A program made the translations under genes and the position numbers. The notes under the pieces were generated by a model. The model searched no databases, was not told the DNA's origin, and saw only the letters and a program-made list of their open reading frames with translations. Of a stretch of DNA of 64,000 bases, positions 1 through 64,000 are shown piece by piece; position 1 is the first letter of the stretch; the number at the start of each line of letters is the position of its first letter. This DNA is from Rhizophagus irregularis (Eukaryota > Glomeromycota > Glomeromycetes > Glomerales > Glomeraceae), in assembly GCF_026210795.1 (NCBI RefSeq), contig NC_089446.1:682001-746000 (forward strand). Direction: 5' to 3'.

Positions 1-450
1 CTGTTTACTGAAAGAAAAAGAAAAGATGAACATTAGAAAATGTTCAAATCTTGAAATCCATGTTCTATACTCATCTAAGAAAATTTTCAATTTCACCATT
101 TCCTACCAAAATCCACATTCTAGACCTGTCTAAAAAAAATTTTCTGAATTTTACTGAGATTTACGCATCCAGACCTGTCTAAAAAAAAAGATAAAAATTC
201 CATTAGCCTTAATACTATGACTATAAATAAAAAAGATAATAAAAAAACCCTTGCCTAGTACTGAATTCCAACGCATCCAAAGACTCAAAAGTTTGTCTAA
301 AAAAAAAAGGAAAAAATGAACTGTTAGTGGTGACCATTTATTAAAATAAATTAAAGAAAAAATTTTTTTTGAAAACTTACAAAATGTACACCCAGAAAAT
401 GAAATACACCTAGCAAAAGAAGAAAAAATTGAAATGTTATAGCGTTTCAT
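1..450 (-). CDS. Putative repeat-exon gene, partial, leaves the window at the left
   Basis: No protein family is recognised. On the minus strand an ATG at 450 opens a 70-nt exon (381-450) with a short hydrophobic start, MKRYNISIFSSF, ending at a GTAAGT donor. Three short exon-like blocks follow at 255-296, 165-178 and 107-129. Each is entered through a T-run plus AG followed by ACAGG or ACAAA, and left through GCAAGG, GTAAAT and GTAGGA. The first intron contains ACTAAC about 25 nt before its acceptor. Near 30-50 an inverted repeat GAACAT/ATGTTC encloses CTAAT on the minus strand. The layout matches the three other micro-exon arrays in this window. The exons are short and one donor is GC, so the exact structure is uncertain, and whether a signal peptide is present is unclear. 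Confidence 0.35.
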
Positions 451-1484
451 TATAGAATTTGAAATTTTTTTTTCATGGGCTTTTTTAAATAAATACGATA
501 AATACGAGAGGAGGAAAGGATAAAGGAAGAAAAATGGTTTATTTTTTTATAAATAAAAATATGACAGTTAAAAACCGTAAAAAAAATAAATAAAAAAAAA
601 TTTTTTTTATAAGAATGAAGGAAGGGAAGAAGGATAAAACAAAGGAATGAGAAAGGGCGAATAAAGGGAGTTGCTTAAAAAAGTTTAGTTTAAATTTTTA
701 AGATCAAACTGGCAGTAGTAAATAGTAATGAATTGATCACGTAATATTCAATATTTTATTTTTAAAGTATAATTTTATTAATTTCATTGTAAATTGTTTT
801 GTACAATATATAAATAAAATATTATATTAGACTTTTAATTGCATCTATATTGGAAAAAAAATTTTAACTAAAAAAAATTTTTAAGATCATACATACTGTA
901 TTCTCCAATTGTACGATCAATTGTATATCATTTATCACGTGATATTAACAATAAAACTGCCAGTTCATGCTGGTCGAATATCTACATCACGCGTTATGGC
1001 CGTTACGCATATCAAAAGTTTAAAAAAGAATCTTATGCATTCTGTTTTAAACTTTTATTCCTTCCTTTCCTCGTCCTTTGGCTCTATAGGCGCGGAAAAA
1101 AAAAATTTTTTTTTTTATTTTTTTTTAAAATTTTAGTGTGGCTTCATCTTTCCCTTCCCAGAATACCGGTCAAAACTACACACCGGACTTTGGATAATAA
1201 GGTAAATGGGAGGGGAAGTCAGTTTTTTTTTTATTTTAGAAATATTTTAACGTTTCTTTTCTTTCTTTTACTTGCAGGTATTTATGTGAAAAAAATAAAA
1301 GAAATAATAAATGACGCAACGAGAATAATGAAGCAAAAGAATGTAACAGAAAAACAAATAACGGATATATGGAATATGGTTATTATACCGAAAGTTGAGT
1401 GTATCAAATGATGGTGTAATCTTCTTCGTAGTAGTTTTTTTAATATTATGAACGGTTTACTAACCGTTCTTGTTTTCCATATAG
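451..1484. other. Gene-free AT-rich spacer
   Basis: Mostly long A and T runs with a few purine-rich stretches. An open frame at about 1276-1411 on the plus strand follows TTACTTGCAG and encodes a short Lys-rich peptide (MKQKNVTEKQITDIWNM near its middle) ending in TGA. It could be a 5' exon of the array that follows, but I cannot show a start codon or a donor linking them. Confidence 0.5.
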
Positions 1485-2564
1485 GTTTCGCAGGAAATAA
1501 AGGGCAAGAGAAAACGAAAGGGAAAGTGAAAATGAAAGGGGAAGTGAAAACGAGAGGGGAAGCGAAAAATGAAAGGGAAAAGAAACAAAAGGAGAAGCGA
1601 AAAACGAAAGAAAGCGAAAAATGAGAGGGAAAGGGGAAAACGAAAGGGATAGGGTAAAAATGATAAGGAAAAGGAAAACGAAAAAGAAAGGGAAAACGAA
1701 AGGGGAAAACGAAAGGGGATGAACTTCCGAAGGATGGAAAAAAGCCAAGATTCATCTTGGTTTTTTTTTTATTTTTTTTTTAATATTATGAGCGGTTACT
1801 AATAACCGTTCTTTTCTTCTTTTTTTAGGATCGTGGGCTTTCGAGTTCCGAAGAACGGAAAAAGCCAAGATTCGTAAGTACGAATCTTGGTTTTATTCTT
1901 TTATTTTTTTTTGTGATATTAATGAACGGTTACTAATAACCGTTTTTTTTCTTTATTATTTTAGGTTCAGGTTGGCTTCCGAGTTACGAAGAATGGAAAA
2001 CCCCAAAGATTCGTAAGGAATCTTTACTTTTTTTTATTTTTGTATTTTTGTATTATTACGAACGGTTTACTAACCGTTCTTGTATTTTTTTTATAGGTTC
2101 GGGAAGGCTTACGAGTTCCAAAGAACGGAAAACCAAGATTCGTAAGTAAGTACGAATCTTGGTTTTTTTTTTGTTTTTTTTTTAATTTTATTAATGAACG
2201 GTTACTAATAACCGTTCTTTCTTCTTTTTTAGGTTCGGCTCTCGGGTGAGCTTCCGAAATATAGAAACTCCAAAGATTCGTAAGTACGAATTTTTTGGAG
2301 TTTTTTTTTTATTTTTTTATTATATGAACGGTACTAACCGTTTTTATTCTTTTTTTTTATAGGTTCGGCTCTCTGGTGGGCTTCCGAAATACAGAAACTT
2401 CAAAGATTCGTAAGTACGAATTTTTTGGAGTTTTTTTTTTATTTTTTTATTATATGAACAGTACTAACCGTTCTTTTTCTTTTATTTTTTAGGACATTAA
2501 TTTCTCTCTTTTTTTTGTAGATATCGGTTTTCGACTTTGGGACTTGGATATGCTGATATGGTAA
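1485..2564 (+). CDS. Tandem micro-exon array with hairpin-flanked introns
   Basis: No named family is assigned. Five clean exon units (1829-1873, 1965-2012, 2097-2141, 2233-2279, 2363-2409; 45, 48, 45, 47 and 47 nt) start after a T-rich AG acceptor with GTTCGG or GATCGT and end at AAGATTC|GTAAG. Introns are 83-91 nt. In the introns after units 2, 4, 5 and 6 the donor lies in the loop of a hairpin, for example stem CCAAGATTC / GAATCTTGG around GTAAGTAC. Before every acceptor an inverted repeat such as GAACGGTTTACTAACCGTTC has the branch-point motif TACTAAC or TACTAAT in its loop. Units 3 and 4 translate to related peptides (VREGLRVPKNGKPRF for unit 4). The first unit (from 1485) is expanded by a polypurine tract and lacks a donor. 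A last exon at 2521-2560 has donor GTAAGT at 2561; reading through reaches TAA at 2562-2564. The 5' end is unknown and reading frames differ between units, so this may be a repeat-exon effector-type gene or a decayed one. Confidence 0.5.
1490..1740 (+). repeat. Polypurine minisatellite
   Basis: About 250 nt that are almost purely A and G on the plus strand, built from variants of GAAAGGGGAAAACGAAAGGG. One plus-strand frame gives a Lys/Glu-rich peptide before a TGA. It sits inside the first unit of the micro-exon array, between its acceptor at 1484 and the CCAAGATTC-type block. The minus-strand Phe/Pro-rich open frames over it are composition artefacts. Confidence 0.75.
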
Positions 2565-3239
2565 GTTTCGATTTTCGATTTGAAAATTCGAAACATAAAG
2601 GATTGAAGCGCGATTTATCCTTGAAGGTTTGCTTAATGTTGTCAGTGTTTAATTCATAATTTTTTTGGTATGTCGTAAAAACACATCATGTGATTTATTG
2701 GAAGAGCTATCGCTCGGAACTACTTATATTTGAGGATAAAATTATTTAATTGCTACAATTGAGTATATATTTAATGCAAATGTACTATATATTTACCATA
2801 AATGTACTATATGTTTACCACAAATGTACTATACTTACTGCAAATGTACTATATTTTACTACATAATTACTACAAATAAAAGTTGTATTTACTGCACAAT
2901 TACTTTTATTAGAACTTATAATTACCATACATTTATGTTAATTTGTTACATCGCTACTATATGTTTACATTATGGTAAATTTACATTTATACTAATTTTC
3001 TATATACTAACTATGGAAGTACTGCATCACTACACTATATTTACTATAAAATAGCGGTACACCTACTACTTTTTAATATATATATAGTAGATGTGTAGTG
3101 GCTACAAAGCCGCTATTTAACCTGTTTCTGTAATGTTTAATAATGATGATAAAAATTCAACGAAATAATTTTTCTTTGGTATAAAATAAATTAAATGAAA
3201 AATGATAAATTATTTAACAAATACAAAAATAAATGCAAA
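2565..3239. repeat. AT-rich spacer with AAATGTACTATAT minisatellite and a small inverted repeat
   Basis: At about 2770-2870 a unit of roughly 22-24 nt (AAATGTACTATATNTTTACC) recurs about four times with variation. At about 3049-3118 AAATAGCGG and CCGCTATTT form the ends of an imperfect inverted repeat around a TA-rich centre. No coding frame is convincing. Confidence 0.55.
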
Positions 3240-5315
3240 TTAATTTTTATCTTGTTCATATTTTAATTGATAGAGTGGATTCTTTTGCTTTTTAACCCAA
3301 GCTAAATATCCATTAACTGAAGGATTGGACTGGTTTTTTATATATGGGAACCCTTTCCATTCTTGATTTTCAATATCCCAAGAAATAATTTTTCATTCAG
3401 GCCGTCAAATTGTCACTTACTTTTTTGAAGAATATTGCATCAACTTTTTGAACAGAATTAACTAGATGTTTACACAAAAAAAAAACGGCTTTGAATATAT
3501 GCAGGACATGCACATATCCATTTTGTTGAATCTGTAAAATATTTGCCATTTAATTGTGTAGTTTTTTTTTCATGTTGCTTCCATTCTTTTTTAAACTCTT
3601 TCCGCCATGGTACTGAATGGCGACCTTGTTGAAATAATTGAATTCGATATAATTGTTGGCTGATTACTTTTTTAACAAGAATAAAACATAAATGATCAAC
3701 TCTGGGCTTGTGAAATTTGTATAAGTGATCATGTTTAATATGTCGCCAATGTGACAATCATTGTAGTTTTAATATGGCTAATGTTTTTATTAGCCGCTCT
3801 TGCCCATAAATTCCACTTTTCTTTTGAATACCATTCTCTCCACAAGTAAACCCATAATTGAAGTAATTCATTTTCTTTACAAAATTCTATCATTTCTTTA
3901 ACACACTCTTTCCAAATTTCGTCTGCATTTGTAATAAAGGTGCCATCATGTTTCAGTAACAACATATGACGATTTGAATGATTTTCAACGATGCTAATTA
4001 CAGTTTTTCGTAACTTTAAAGGGCAAAATACCAAATTTGAATTATTAATAATTCCCCAACTAGGATCAATTGATGAACATTCTTCATGTGCAACTTTTGG
4101 ATTATAAGAATAATATGTACCAATTTTATTAGATGATAAACGTTGCTTAATAGCCCGTCTTAAATGCCAAACACATAATTGTAAACGTGCTTCAGGCCAT
4201 ACTGTTTGTGCTGCATTGATTTCTGAGAAATCTTTATCAGTTAAAATAAAAGGAAAGTTTCTCAGGTTTCGTTCTTTTAAAGCTTGCATCCACTGAGTAA
4301 GAATCCCTGTTATATTTCGATTTTTTCCAACTGAAATTATAAGATAGCTAAGAGGAAATCCAGTACCATCTATAACACCCATAATAGCATATAATTCCCA
4401 TGCCAAATTATTGGTACCATAAGTTGCATCGATTTCAATTGCTTCAAAATTATAGTAAATCAATTTGTAAAACAATTCTGTTAAAAATCCAAGAGCGGGC
4501 GCAGAAGTATTAAGATTATTTACTATAATTTCTTGGTTAAACTCTTCTAGCAAACATTTTGCTGATAATAAAGGATTGGTGTCACAGCAGTATGCCTTAC
4601 GAGATTGAATAGACCACCAATAATAGGTCTGTTGAACTGTTATGTTTTCATGTCCAATAATTTGATTTTCTCGAATTTGGCGCCAAATTTCTGAAACAGG
4701 ACAATTAAGATTATCCTGGATAAATCTTTTAATTTCATACGTAGTATTAACATGCCTTAGTCGTGGATGTAACATTTTATGAGAATATTTAACTTTGATT
4801 AAGTCCAGTTTTGATAAGATCTCTATATTTATTGTTCCCTCACAATGGTACCGTTCTAAATAGGTAGATGTGTCTCTTTGTTTATCTAATATAGGATGCT
4901 TTACTTGCCATTTTCCAAGCTCAATTCGACAATTGCAATAATATAATATATGAAGAGAGTCTTTTTTTTGATTTTTATTCCGATAAACCCATGAATAGCC
5001 ATCACCTTCCGAAATAAGTGTTATTACATGATTGTTAACTTCAATTTCAAGGTTTTCTTTATTTGACTCATCTTTTTCTGAAATAAAGTTCATTAGTATC
5101 ATTTAGAGAAATTAAATGGTTGTATATAGTTTCAGTAATATCTGAATAATTAATTATTGCGTCAGATTGTTCAGCATTTTTTTTAAACGAGCAATTTTAA
5201 GTTTATCTCGGCAGTGCAAACATTTTTTTAAAGCAACACCTTTATCATTTAGAAAATTTTCATTGCTTTGACGAACATGACATCCTTTACAAGTTCTATT
5301 TTCTTGGTTTGACAT
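3240..5315 (-). pseudogene. MULE (Mutator-like) transposase, multiply frameshifted
   Basis: Minus-strand relic of a DDE transposase of the Mutator-like superfamily. The N-terminal piece (5154-5315) has a zinc-binding CxxC...CxxC layout (CKGCHVRQ, CLHCRDK). The central open frame (3735-5102, 455 aa) has a YYCNCR...RYHC Cys/His motif near residues 54-90 and a MULE catalytic core. That core shows AIEIDATYGTN (first catalytic Asp), FILTDKDFSEINAAQ (second Asp) and LQLCVWHLRRAI (CxxH motif). The next frame (3470-3757) carries a SWIM-like segment, WICACPAYIQSRFFF, and the C-terminus continues in a third frame to TAA at 3240-3242. Frames change near 5160, 5090, 3755 and 3490, the last within a T10 run. 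Homology resumes directly after each shift, so this was one ORF. Individual shifts in homopolymers could be sequencing errors, but four together suggest an inactive copy. I found no terminal inverted repeats. Confidence 0.85.
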
Positions 5316-47489: not shown

Positions 47490-48230
47490 AATTTTTTAAT
47501 AGAAAAAAAACAAATTAAAAATATTATTACAGATAAGTTTCGAATGACATATCCAAGTCCTAAACTGAAAGAACCAATACCTACAAAAAAAAAGAGATTA
47601 AAAAAAATAAATTAAAAAAATGTTTCAAAATTTTGAATCGAAACTTATCAGATCCAAGCCCCGAAGCCGAAAAAACTGACACCTACAAAAAAAAAATTAA
47701 ATTAAAAAAAAAACAAAATAAACAAATTTTTAAAAAAATTTCGAACCAAAAAGCAATGAAAAAGAAACATTAGTTTGTTTCTTAAATTTAAAACCTTCTC
47801 CCTTTCCAAAGTCCAGTTTCATGTTCAAGCCAGCGCCTACAAAAAAAAATAATGAAAAGAAATGTTAAAACATTTCTTAAATTAAAAAATATTCCAACTC
47901 TTTCTTACTTTAAAGTCTGGTTCATTCGGGCCGGCGCTTTACAAAAAAAAATAATGAAAAGAAACGTTAAAACGTTTCTTAAATTAAAAAAAAAGATAAA
48001 AAAAAGTTTCAGCTCGTTCACACCTTAAAGTCCAGTTCGTTCTGGCTGGTAATTTCTACAAAAAAAAAAAAATAATGAAAGAAACGTTAGTAAAATGTTT
48101 CTACAAAGTTAATTTTAAAAAAAGCTTTACCTCTCAAAGCCGAAATGAAGCCAAAGGAGCTTATCTATGTACTTGCAGACCGAAGCTGAAACGAATAAAA
48201 TGCCATTCATGAAAATTTTTTAAAATTATT
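47470..48230 (-). CDS. Tandem micro-exon array, minus strand
   Basis: Units of about 100-155 nt on the minus strand: a T-run plus GTAG acceptor (six near 47474, 47582, 47680, 47835, 47939 and 48058; that at 47939 is degenerate), a short exon, and a donor (GTAAAG at 48130, GTGTGA near 48024, GTAAGA near 47907). Exons share a motif: AGLNMKLDFGK, AGPNEPDF and a diverged third copy. Introns hold inverted repeats with a branch-point-like centre, such as GAAACGTTTTAACGTTTC and GAAACATTTT-ACTAACGTTTC. The exon at 48131-48186 (LLWLHFGFER at its end) may be preceded by a start at about 48210 (MNGILFVSASV, weakly hydrophobic). The lower units are strongly decayed into A-runs. Confidence 0.4.
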
Positions 48231-48243
48231 TTATCCAAATTAT

Positions 48244-48338
48244 GGTGTAGTTAGCCGGCAAATAATTAGCCGTGATCTGGACTGGCTCCAGATGATCGGC
48301 AATCAGGAATTTGGCTCCGTTTTTCGGCTAACTACACC
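48244..48338. mobile_element. Foldback element with nested hairpin
   Basis: Outer arms GGTGTAGTTAGCCG (48244-48257) and CGGCTAACTACACC (48325-48338) are a perfect inverted repeat. Inside, GCCGTGATCTGGA and TCCAGATGATCGGC pair to form a second stem. About 95 nt, GC-rich against the AT-rich flanks. Same design as 38474-38550, with different sequence. Confidence 0.65.
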
Positions 48339-48399
48339 ATTATGTCGAAAAGATCCTAAAAAGTCTAAAAATATTAACTTTTTTGATTATCTTTCGCCG

Positions 48400-63039: not shown

Positions 63040-64000
63040 AAATTTCACCCAAAGAAATCAGCCTACCATCGAAAGAACTTGGAGAAGCAATACCTACGAA
63101 AAATAAAAAAAAGAACCGTTAGTACGTTTCTTGAAGTTAATTTCAAAATTCCACCTCGAAAAAGATAATTTGCCGTTAAAAAAAGAACTCTTCTGGAGAA
63201 GCCGATGCCTACAAAAAAGTAAAAATTCCAAGTCCAGTTCAAAAGGCCGAGAAGAGACCTACAAAAAAAGAAAATCTAGTCCGAAGTTGAGACTTGCAAA
63301 AAAAAATTAAATCGTTTAAAAAAAGGAAAAAAAAAGAACTGTTAATGTTTGGAAAAATAAAAATATATATACATATTTTTTTTTACTTGCCGATATTCCC
63401 CGTCCTAATACCCAAAAAACTCGCCTAAAAAAATAAGAACAGTTAGTAATGATCGTTAAACAAAAAAAAATCAAAAAAAAAAATTTTTCTCCCTAAAGAC
63501 GAAAAATCATCACTTCACAACTTACCTTTCATAATCCAGGAATCCAGATCCGGGAAGGCGTCCCCTAAAGATAATAATCAAAAACGTTAATGACGTTCCA
63601 AAGACAAAAAAAAACCAAAAAATCCCTACCTCACAACTTACCTTTCATAATCCAAGCCGGAATCCAGGTCCAGGAAGGCGTCCCCTGAAGAAAAAGAGAA
63701 AAATGAACGTTAATAATGTACCCAATGACAAAAAAATGAAAATTTTCTCCTCTCAACTTACTTTCGTAGCCCAAGCCGAAATCCAGTTCCAGAAAGACGT
63801 CCCCTAAAAAAATGAAGCAAAATAAACATGACGTTCCCAAGATGAAAGAACAAAGAAATTTACACTTTCCATCTAAAACCAAAGCTGTCTAAACTGGCTA
63901 AGTCAAATTCCGAAGAGAGAAGACCGAAGTCAAAGACGCTCCTAAAAAAAAGAAGTGTTTTTTTTTTAAAAAAAAAACATACCGGATTATCTGATTAATC
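63040..64000 (-). CDS. Tandem micro-exon array, minus strand, continues beyond the window
   Basis: Three well-preserved minus-strand exons share one sequence: 63762-63803 (42 nt), 63642-63684 (43 nt), 63526-63564 (39 nt). Each starts AG|GGGACG and ends GAAA or GAAAG before GTAAGTTG; both introns between them are 77 nt. They encode variants of GDAFLDLDSGLDYE. The introns carry ATTAACG or ATTACTAACTG before the acceptor, in or near short inverted repeats (AACGT...ACGTT). An upstream exon at about 63866-63942 (SVFDFGLLSSEFDLASLDSF) belongs to the same gene, whose 5' end lies beyond 64000. Further decayed units with TTTTTTGTAG acceptors are at about 63213, 63260 and 63099. The repeated acidic, Leu/Asp-rich peptide is not a known domain. 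Confidence 0.5.

Follow-up and report, generated by a model that had tools for sequence, protein, structure and literature searches.

Non-autonomous elements of the CACTA/EnSpm type have CACTA ends and a 3-bp duplication, and their body is typically a deleted transposase gene. A separate point of reference is the donor-sequestering hairpin of the tau exon 10 type, in which the donor is paired within a stem that spans the boundary of exon and intron. Introners, as presented in the accessible text of PMC9860276, are single introns spread by transposons that have terminal inverted repeats and make target duplications, and the intron ends lie at or near the element ends; the main text, in its available sections, contains neither 'Rhizophagus' nor 'Glomero'. 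Structured yeast introns (zipper and downstream stems) keep their stems in related species, and these stems lie between the donor and the branch or past the branch (PMC12350175, available sections). The internally symmetrical stwintrons of the Hypoxylaceae are multiplied fungal introns, nested as twins, whose internal symmetry is stated in the title of the source and for which the accessible part mentions no tandem mini-exons (PMC8469720). Among its transposons, R. irregularis has CMC and Plavaka families, and about two-thirds are unclassified (PMC11075540, available portion).

Here, we describe an array of mini-exons and short introns with hairpins at its splice signals, found in a 64,000-nucleotide stretch of Rhizophagus irregularis DNA (hereafter the window). 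We read this array and its relatives as mobile, non-coding exon/intron arrays whose splicing would be gated by RNA structure. The anatomy is observed, splicing and its gating we infer, and we hold the reading as a whole to be evenly poised between right and wrong.

The array in the window

The preliminary description had noted tandem repetition of exon/intron units at 1441-2564, each comprising an acceptor, a mini-exon, a donor and an intron. Both the repetition (TRF period of 130, 5.2 copies, 1754-2448) and the unit layout (exons of 45-48 nt and introns of 83-91 nt within 1441-2564) are borne out. Five complete intron units lie downstream of a long purine-rich exon, and the donor, branch motif, pyrimidine tract, and acceptor follow one another in the correct spliceosomal order in the array introns. 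The features, all on the forward strand, are as follows.

1450..1469 (+): branch-site hairpin GAACGGT(TTACTA)ACCGTTC; acceptor AG at 1483-1484
1485..1760 (+): purine-rich long exon, with a terminal donor hairpin whose GT has been lost (CCAAGATTC-ATCTTGG, 1745-1760)
1793..1808 (+): branch-site hairpin CGGTTA(CTAA)TAACCG; acceptor end at 1828
1829..1873 (+): mini-exon, 45 nt
1865..1890 (+): donor hairpin CCAAGATTC-GTAAGTAC-GAATCTTGG; donor at 1874; the fold gives a longer stem, z -7.0
1874..1964 (+): intron, 91 nt; branch hairpin AACGGTTA(CTAA)TAACCGTT at 1925-1944
1965..2012 (+): mini-exon, 48 nt
2005..2025 (+): donor hairpin AAAGATTC-GTAAG-GAATCTTT; weak fold, z -1.5
2013..2096 (+): intron, 84 nt; branch hairpin at 2060-2079
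2097..2141 (+): mini-exon, 45 nt
2133..2162 (+): donor hairpin CCAAGATTC-GTAAGTAAGTAC-GAATCTTGG; z -7.2
2142..2232 (+): intron, 91 nt; branch hairpin at 2196-2217
2233..2279 (+): mini-exon, 47 nt
2268..2300 (+): donor hairpin CTCCAAAGATTC-GTAAGTAC-GAATTTTTTGGAG; z -7.0
2280..2362 (+): intron, 83 nt; branch hairpin at 2327-2342
2363..2409 (+): mini-exon, 47 nt
2398..2430 (+): donor hairpin CTTCAAAGATTC-GTAAGTAC-GAATTTTTTGGAG; z -5.3
2410..2492 (+): intron, 83 nt; branch hairpin at 2455-2472, interrupted
2493..2560 (+): terminal stretch; candidate acceptors at 2492 and 2520, donor at 2561

Seven branch motifs of the array sit in hairpins whose strict Watson-Crick stems measure 7, 6, 8, 7, 9, 6 and 4 bp in order, the seventh (GAACAGTACTAACCGTTC) being interrupted by a mismatch. 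Their placement in the loop, as first claimed, holds in part: the branch A lies inside a CTAA loop in the TACTAAT form but at the closing pair in the TACTAAC form. Folded as RNA, two of these branch hairpins gave z-scores of -2.4 and -3.4. Hairpins were likewise found at five donors, where 51-nt pieces folded with energies of -22.0, -9.3, -23.2, -19.4 and -16.6 kcal/mol (z versus shuffles of -7.0, -1.5, -7.2, -7.0 and -5.3); by these z-scores, four of the folds are strong and the second is not significant. The donor itself had been placed in the loop, but in the four strong folds its G and U are paired at the top of the stem and the loop consists only of the bases that follow, while the weak second hairpin has GUAAG as its loop. 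Adjoining the array on the minus strand (7-453), in the opposite sense, are three more matches to a branch-hairpin model (E 0.001, 0.07 and 0.11).

On our reading, transcripts of the elements would be spliced at the array sites, and the hairpins would gate recognition of those sites, with the donor GU paired and the branch motif held. Exon use would be slow or variable because of this gating, splicing taking place as stems open. As for benefit, our guess is that the splice sites of the element may stay mostly silent within host transcripts, or that the element RNA may stay unspliced. Since yeast introns are depleted of structure around their canonical splice sites (PMC12350175, available sections), the array hairpins could also simply block splicing.

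Elements that carry the arrays

The genome searched (Rhizophagus irregularis, 146.7 Mb in 32 contigs) contains relatives of the window array that fill elements bounded by CACTAGTCGAAAAAGG inverted repeats. These terminal inverted repeats start with CACTA. Array similarity led to 20 loci, of which 8 have both ends by exact match and the others one or none. Identical 3-bp flanks (GAT, TTT, TAA, TAC, TTG and ATA) surround six of the eight elements, the exceptions being those at L013 and L015. When elements were instead picked by their end pairs alone, arrays were present in 7/7 and the 3-bp flanks were identical in 7/7 (TTA, TAA, AAC, GAG, TTT, TCA and CTA), giving a 3-bp target duplication at 13/15 end pairs overall. 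The end pattern, with up to two mismatches allowed, has 63 matches, compared to 0 for the backwards control. One copy, at L011, interrupts an open frame, and its joined flanks match another place over 240/240 bases (96%), which is the empty site. Complete elements read range from 1.4 kb (L044, 5 branch hairpins) to 3.9 kb (L014, 20 introns), with 5 to 20 units per element.

No transposase was found in the element copies read, or in end searches that scored 40 candidates each; there are at least 155 Transposase_21 matches elsewhere in the genome. End pairs more than 16 kb apart were considered as a possible autonomous partner and rejected: those at L046 and L026 hold ORFs that by eye look like those of retrotransposons, and we thus take these pairs to be nested insertions. 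The L011 array transposon is itself nested in another element, since it is enclosed by an element of 6.2 kb that has inverted repeats of 30 bp (CGTCTAAAGCGGAG...; L011:2483-8697). Elsewhere, at L015:2940-3200 and L025:6400-7800, array transposons lie in or beside other mini-exon arrays.

The array in the window has a different carrier:

1..3136 (+): the portion inside the window of a ~4.5-kb dispersed repeat, with a 95% identical copy at L010 and a partial copy at L009

The right end of this repeat, near 3136, is common to the copies, and ~950 bases between L054 and the window are unread. The sequence CACTAGTCGAAA is absent from the window, and the repeat ends share no inverted repeat longer than 9 bases. 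With the window copy thus in a different repeat, in which no inverted repeats were found, the array type has more than one carrier. The preliminary description had raised the possibility of a mobile, introner-like intron unit; mobility stands for whole elements built of arrays, but not for single introns, and the window copy shows dispersal only (three copies). A Transposase_21 match 2.5 kb upstream of the window was not assigned to the repeat, as only the last ~412 bases of L054 match L010. At L009 (~6669, minus strand), an unrelated GC-rich sequence replaces the 5' part of the repeat exactly upstream of the first branch hairpin, which suggests an exchange of 5' modules. Adjoining the repeat, on the minus strand of the window (3735-5102), is a 455-aa ORF that by eye resembles a MULE-type transposase.

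The design of an array with hairpins recurs in the CACTA-like family, in an unrelated TA-flanked repeat family, and in a third dispersed family. The TA-flanked family is represented by a 1.6-kb repeat (L028:1262-2852) with TA at each end and ends that, we take it, resemble those of pogo/Tigger elements. It has 13 more near-complete copies (query 42-63 to 1652-1662) at 93-96%, with other copies matching from later points. Its mini-exons are 30-40 nt long and its branch hairpins are of the type AAGAACAT(TTACTA)ATGTTCTT, and by eye the repeat has no clear donor hairpin. The third family is found at L047, where a flank of 460 bp is found again at 35 further places among the matches listed and donors lie in stems such as TAAGTTTCGTT(TCATC)AACGAAACTTA; as L047-L053 were chosen by hairpin pattern, only their donor hairpins constitute new evidence. 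Genome-wide, the patterns GAAACGTTN{0,4}TAACGTTTC and GAACGGTTN{0,4}TAACCGTTC have 1,069 and 593 matches, respectively, with 0 for each backwards control; these counts score palindromic sites on both strands and reflect the pattern alone, not the splice context. Exact hairpin patterns had no match in viral and genome contig collections. Two further series in the window are array-like:

47740..48110 (-): second array-like series; branch hairpins include AAGAAATGT(TTTA)ACATTTCTT
63096..63800 (-): third array-like series, with exon GGGGACGCCTTCCTGGATCTGG... and imperfect branch hairpins

Next to the second series (48240-48350, minus strand) is an inverted repeat, TGGTGTAGTTAGCCG ... CGGCTAACTACACCA, with ~100 bases between its arms, resembling a miniature transposon. 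At 63096-64000 (minus strand) and in L029, more exon/intron-like series with donors GTAAGTTTC... continue for several kb past the window end.

Tentatively, and at somewhat less than an even chance, we propose that these families constitute a novel mobile-element class, comprising DNA transposons from unrelated superfamilies in which the body, by convergence or module exchange, would be a non-coding mini-exon array with donors and branch sites locked in hairpins. Structure-gated splicing would silence or diversify the transcript of such elements, which would be misannotated as orphan genes.

Stems in array introns, covariation and decay

The intron sample was drawn from the 20 similarity-found 10-kb loci, the window and L029, with introns selected on motif and spacing, irrespective of stem. 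Donor stems of at least 7 bp occur in 215/250 array introns, branch stems of at least 7 bp in 186/250, and both in 172/250; as most of these introns are copies within a single family, independence is overstated in comparing them with controls. Among 16 control introns of chaperonin (Cpn60/TCP1) genes, stems of this length were found at 0/16 donors (stems of 2-5 bp) and 1/16 branch sites (3-7 bp), with TACTAA in 0/16 of the branch candidates shown; these controls were placed only roughly, some with doubtful boundaries (16 introns placed, no placement in 11 other gaps, gaps >140 nt skipped). Shuffled arms gave branch stems of at least 7 bp in 61/5,780 trials, compared to the 186/250 observed. 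Of 39 intron candidates outside the arrays, five had such a stem at the donor and eight at the branch, and all five donor cases are array remnants with the array's own motif. A covariance model (R2) was searched against nine chaperonin loci as well as the window and L029, and 35 matches had an E value no higher than 1. The 16 matches at E up to 0.01 include none in the nine control loci, where two matches were seen (E 0.31 and 0.45); several hits in the window and L029 are sequences used to build the model, and, owing to the overlap of L029 with the window, three of its hits duplicate those of the window.

The stems had been described as varying while staying paired, suggestive of maintained structure. 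This holds across array lineages, where the outer pairs covary, but not in recent copies, which show no purifying selection on donors. With the donor register fixed by the inner four pairs, 201/250 donors qualified, among which 44 have arms distinct from one another. Watson-Crick pairing is present at outer pair 4 in 70% and at outer pair 6 in 66% of these 44, against 34% and 32% when shuffled (0/2000 each); pairs 1, 2 and 8 are also above shuffles (28, 4 and 7 of 2000), and pairs 3, 5, 7 and 9 are not significant in the same 44 arms. At pairs 4 and 6, both sides have changed from the commonest pair with pairing retained in 16 and 12 arms, and pairing is broken in 11 and 11. For the branch hairpins, 317/369 candidates have the three-pair core (135 distinct), and outer pairs 1-6, but not 7, exceed 1000/1000 shuffles among the distinct hairpins. 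In a cross-family set of 24 branch hairpins from several families, chosen mainly for having hairpins, 79.6% of cells are paired versus 70.6% when shuffled, with all slid registers lower. Two-sided changes number 23 versus 8.9 in shuffles (0/500), and the tally of pairs that show such a change does not reach significance (90/500). Shared ancestry may inflate all of these covariation values.

In recent copies, purifying selection on donors was looked for across 221 sites and not found: CpG decay destroyed the donor G 15 times and spared it 7 times, and changes that break a pair to A.C were no rarer than changes that keep a wobble. This donor-blind decay is the strongest doubt on the mechanism, as it fits copies that are dead on arrival and, equally, splicing that never mattered.

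Both results bear on the possibility that the palindromes are DNA features (sites for transposase or host proteins, or products of template switching) that overlie splice motifs inherited from an old spliced gene, with splicing now irrelevant. Arm complementarity is equally expected of DNA palindromes, and the decay of recent copies, in its indifference to donors and to A.C-breaking changes, suits this explanation as well. Every unit read is nonetheless strand-asymmetric: the branch palindrome is followed by a T-rich tract and TAG, GTAAG occupies the 5' side of loops that vary widely in length, and an identical layout is seen across families distinct in sequence, so that we regard a DNA-level origin as unlikely, if deserving of serious weight. 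More improbable still, in our view, is a neutral satellite, in which one unit of a formerly spliced gene was tandemly duplicated within non-autonomous elements, with hairpins inherited and unselected. The variable number of units per element and the neutral appearance of recent decay would fit such an origin; against it stand the covariation in both donor and branch stems and the recurrence of the design in different families.

Gene models and comparison with known systems

Tuning of a repeat protein by splicing, one of the roles initially suggested for the array, finds no support in the exons. The lengths of distinct exons leave remainders of 0, 1 and 2 in 66, 52 and 53 cases (n=171, p=0.34), indicating that codon phase is not kept; across all 224 exons there is a slight excess divisible by three (95/62/67, p=0.014), an effect that can arise from repeated copies. 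CpG decay in the TTCCGA context yields TGA 27 times and CAA 28 times, with no avoidance of stops, while stop triplets in 145 distinct exons are fewer than in dinucleotide shuffles (88 vs 151). Judged from sequence, coding constraint on the array exons is unlikely.

Translation of the joined exons matched 145 proteins among the 7,992 candidates scored (those with the most shared words). The 120 matches listed are all named R. irregularis, and 119/120 lack a Pfam domain. At least 16 of these 120 models lie over at least 93% of their length, in ordered exact blocks, on the fetched arrays (three best loci per protein), and GT..AG is found within 3 nt at 183/192 introns of the 16 mapped models. In OCT59_004792, for example, 14 introns fall at L011 units, with some donors shifted by a few bases. 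The matched models contain as many as 16 introns, and their isoform names run from t1 to t6, several hits being isoforms with numbers t2 to t6. According to the available text of PMC10234402, the OCT59 models were made by BRAKER with RNA-seq and refined with Nanopore data, and the RIR_jg models, by the accessible part of their description, come from AUGUSTUS with RNA-seq intron hints. Such RNA-seq-guided models favour real, variable splicing without proving it.

These models, with their many introns and isoforms, together with the deficit of stop triplets and the slight excess of exons divisible by three, could also be accommodated by a genuine repeat-protein gene, whose exons encode repeats and whose splicing variation tunes repeat number. 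We consider this highly improbable, given the distinct exon lengths, the even split of CGA decay between TGA and CAA, and the fact that the models gain their open frames via donor shifts of a few bases. The SP7-like effectors, known repeat proteins of R. irregularis in which a conserved intron precedes the first repeat (PMC11333574, available sections), were set aside on description only.

Some orphan proteins of R. irregularis appear to correspond to transposon arrays that annotation has taken for multi-exon genes, and orphan-gene counts of the species may be inflated. The array families may belong among its unclassified transposons. Whether RNA structure at splice signals is kept and used can, moreover, be tested here on hundreds of natural variants in one genome.

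To our knowledge, no known system combines the features of introners, CACTA elements, structured introns, and donor hairpins, and titles and abstract openings listed by searches of an open-access library pointed to no description of such arrays, subscription papers and preprints being outside this scope. The array elements are like non-autonomous CACTA/EnSpm elements in their CACTA ends, 3-bp duplication and transposase-free copies, and unlike them in that the body is an exon/intron array and in that the window copy lacks CACTA ends. As in tau exon 10, a boundary-spanning stem pairs the donor, whereas tau exon 10 is a single regulated exon of a protein gene, with no array, transposon or branch hairpin; MAPT is mentioned in the accessible part of PMC7404189. 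The Hypoxylaceae stwintrons are comparable as multiplied, symmetrical fungal introns and differ in being nested twins (PMC8469720, accessible part). With introners, the array elements share terminal inverted repeats and target duplications around multiplied introns (PMC9860276, accessible text), but in the elements read the element ends lie outside the splice-site array. Finally, kept stems are common to the structured yeast introns and the arrays, but where the yeast stems lie between or beyond the splice signals (PMC12350175, available sections), the array stems contain the sites themselves.
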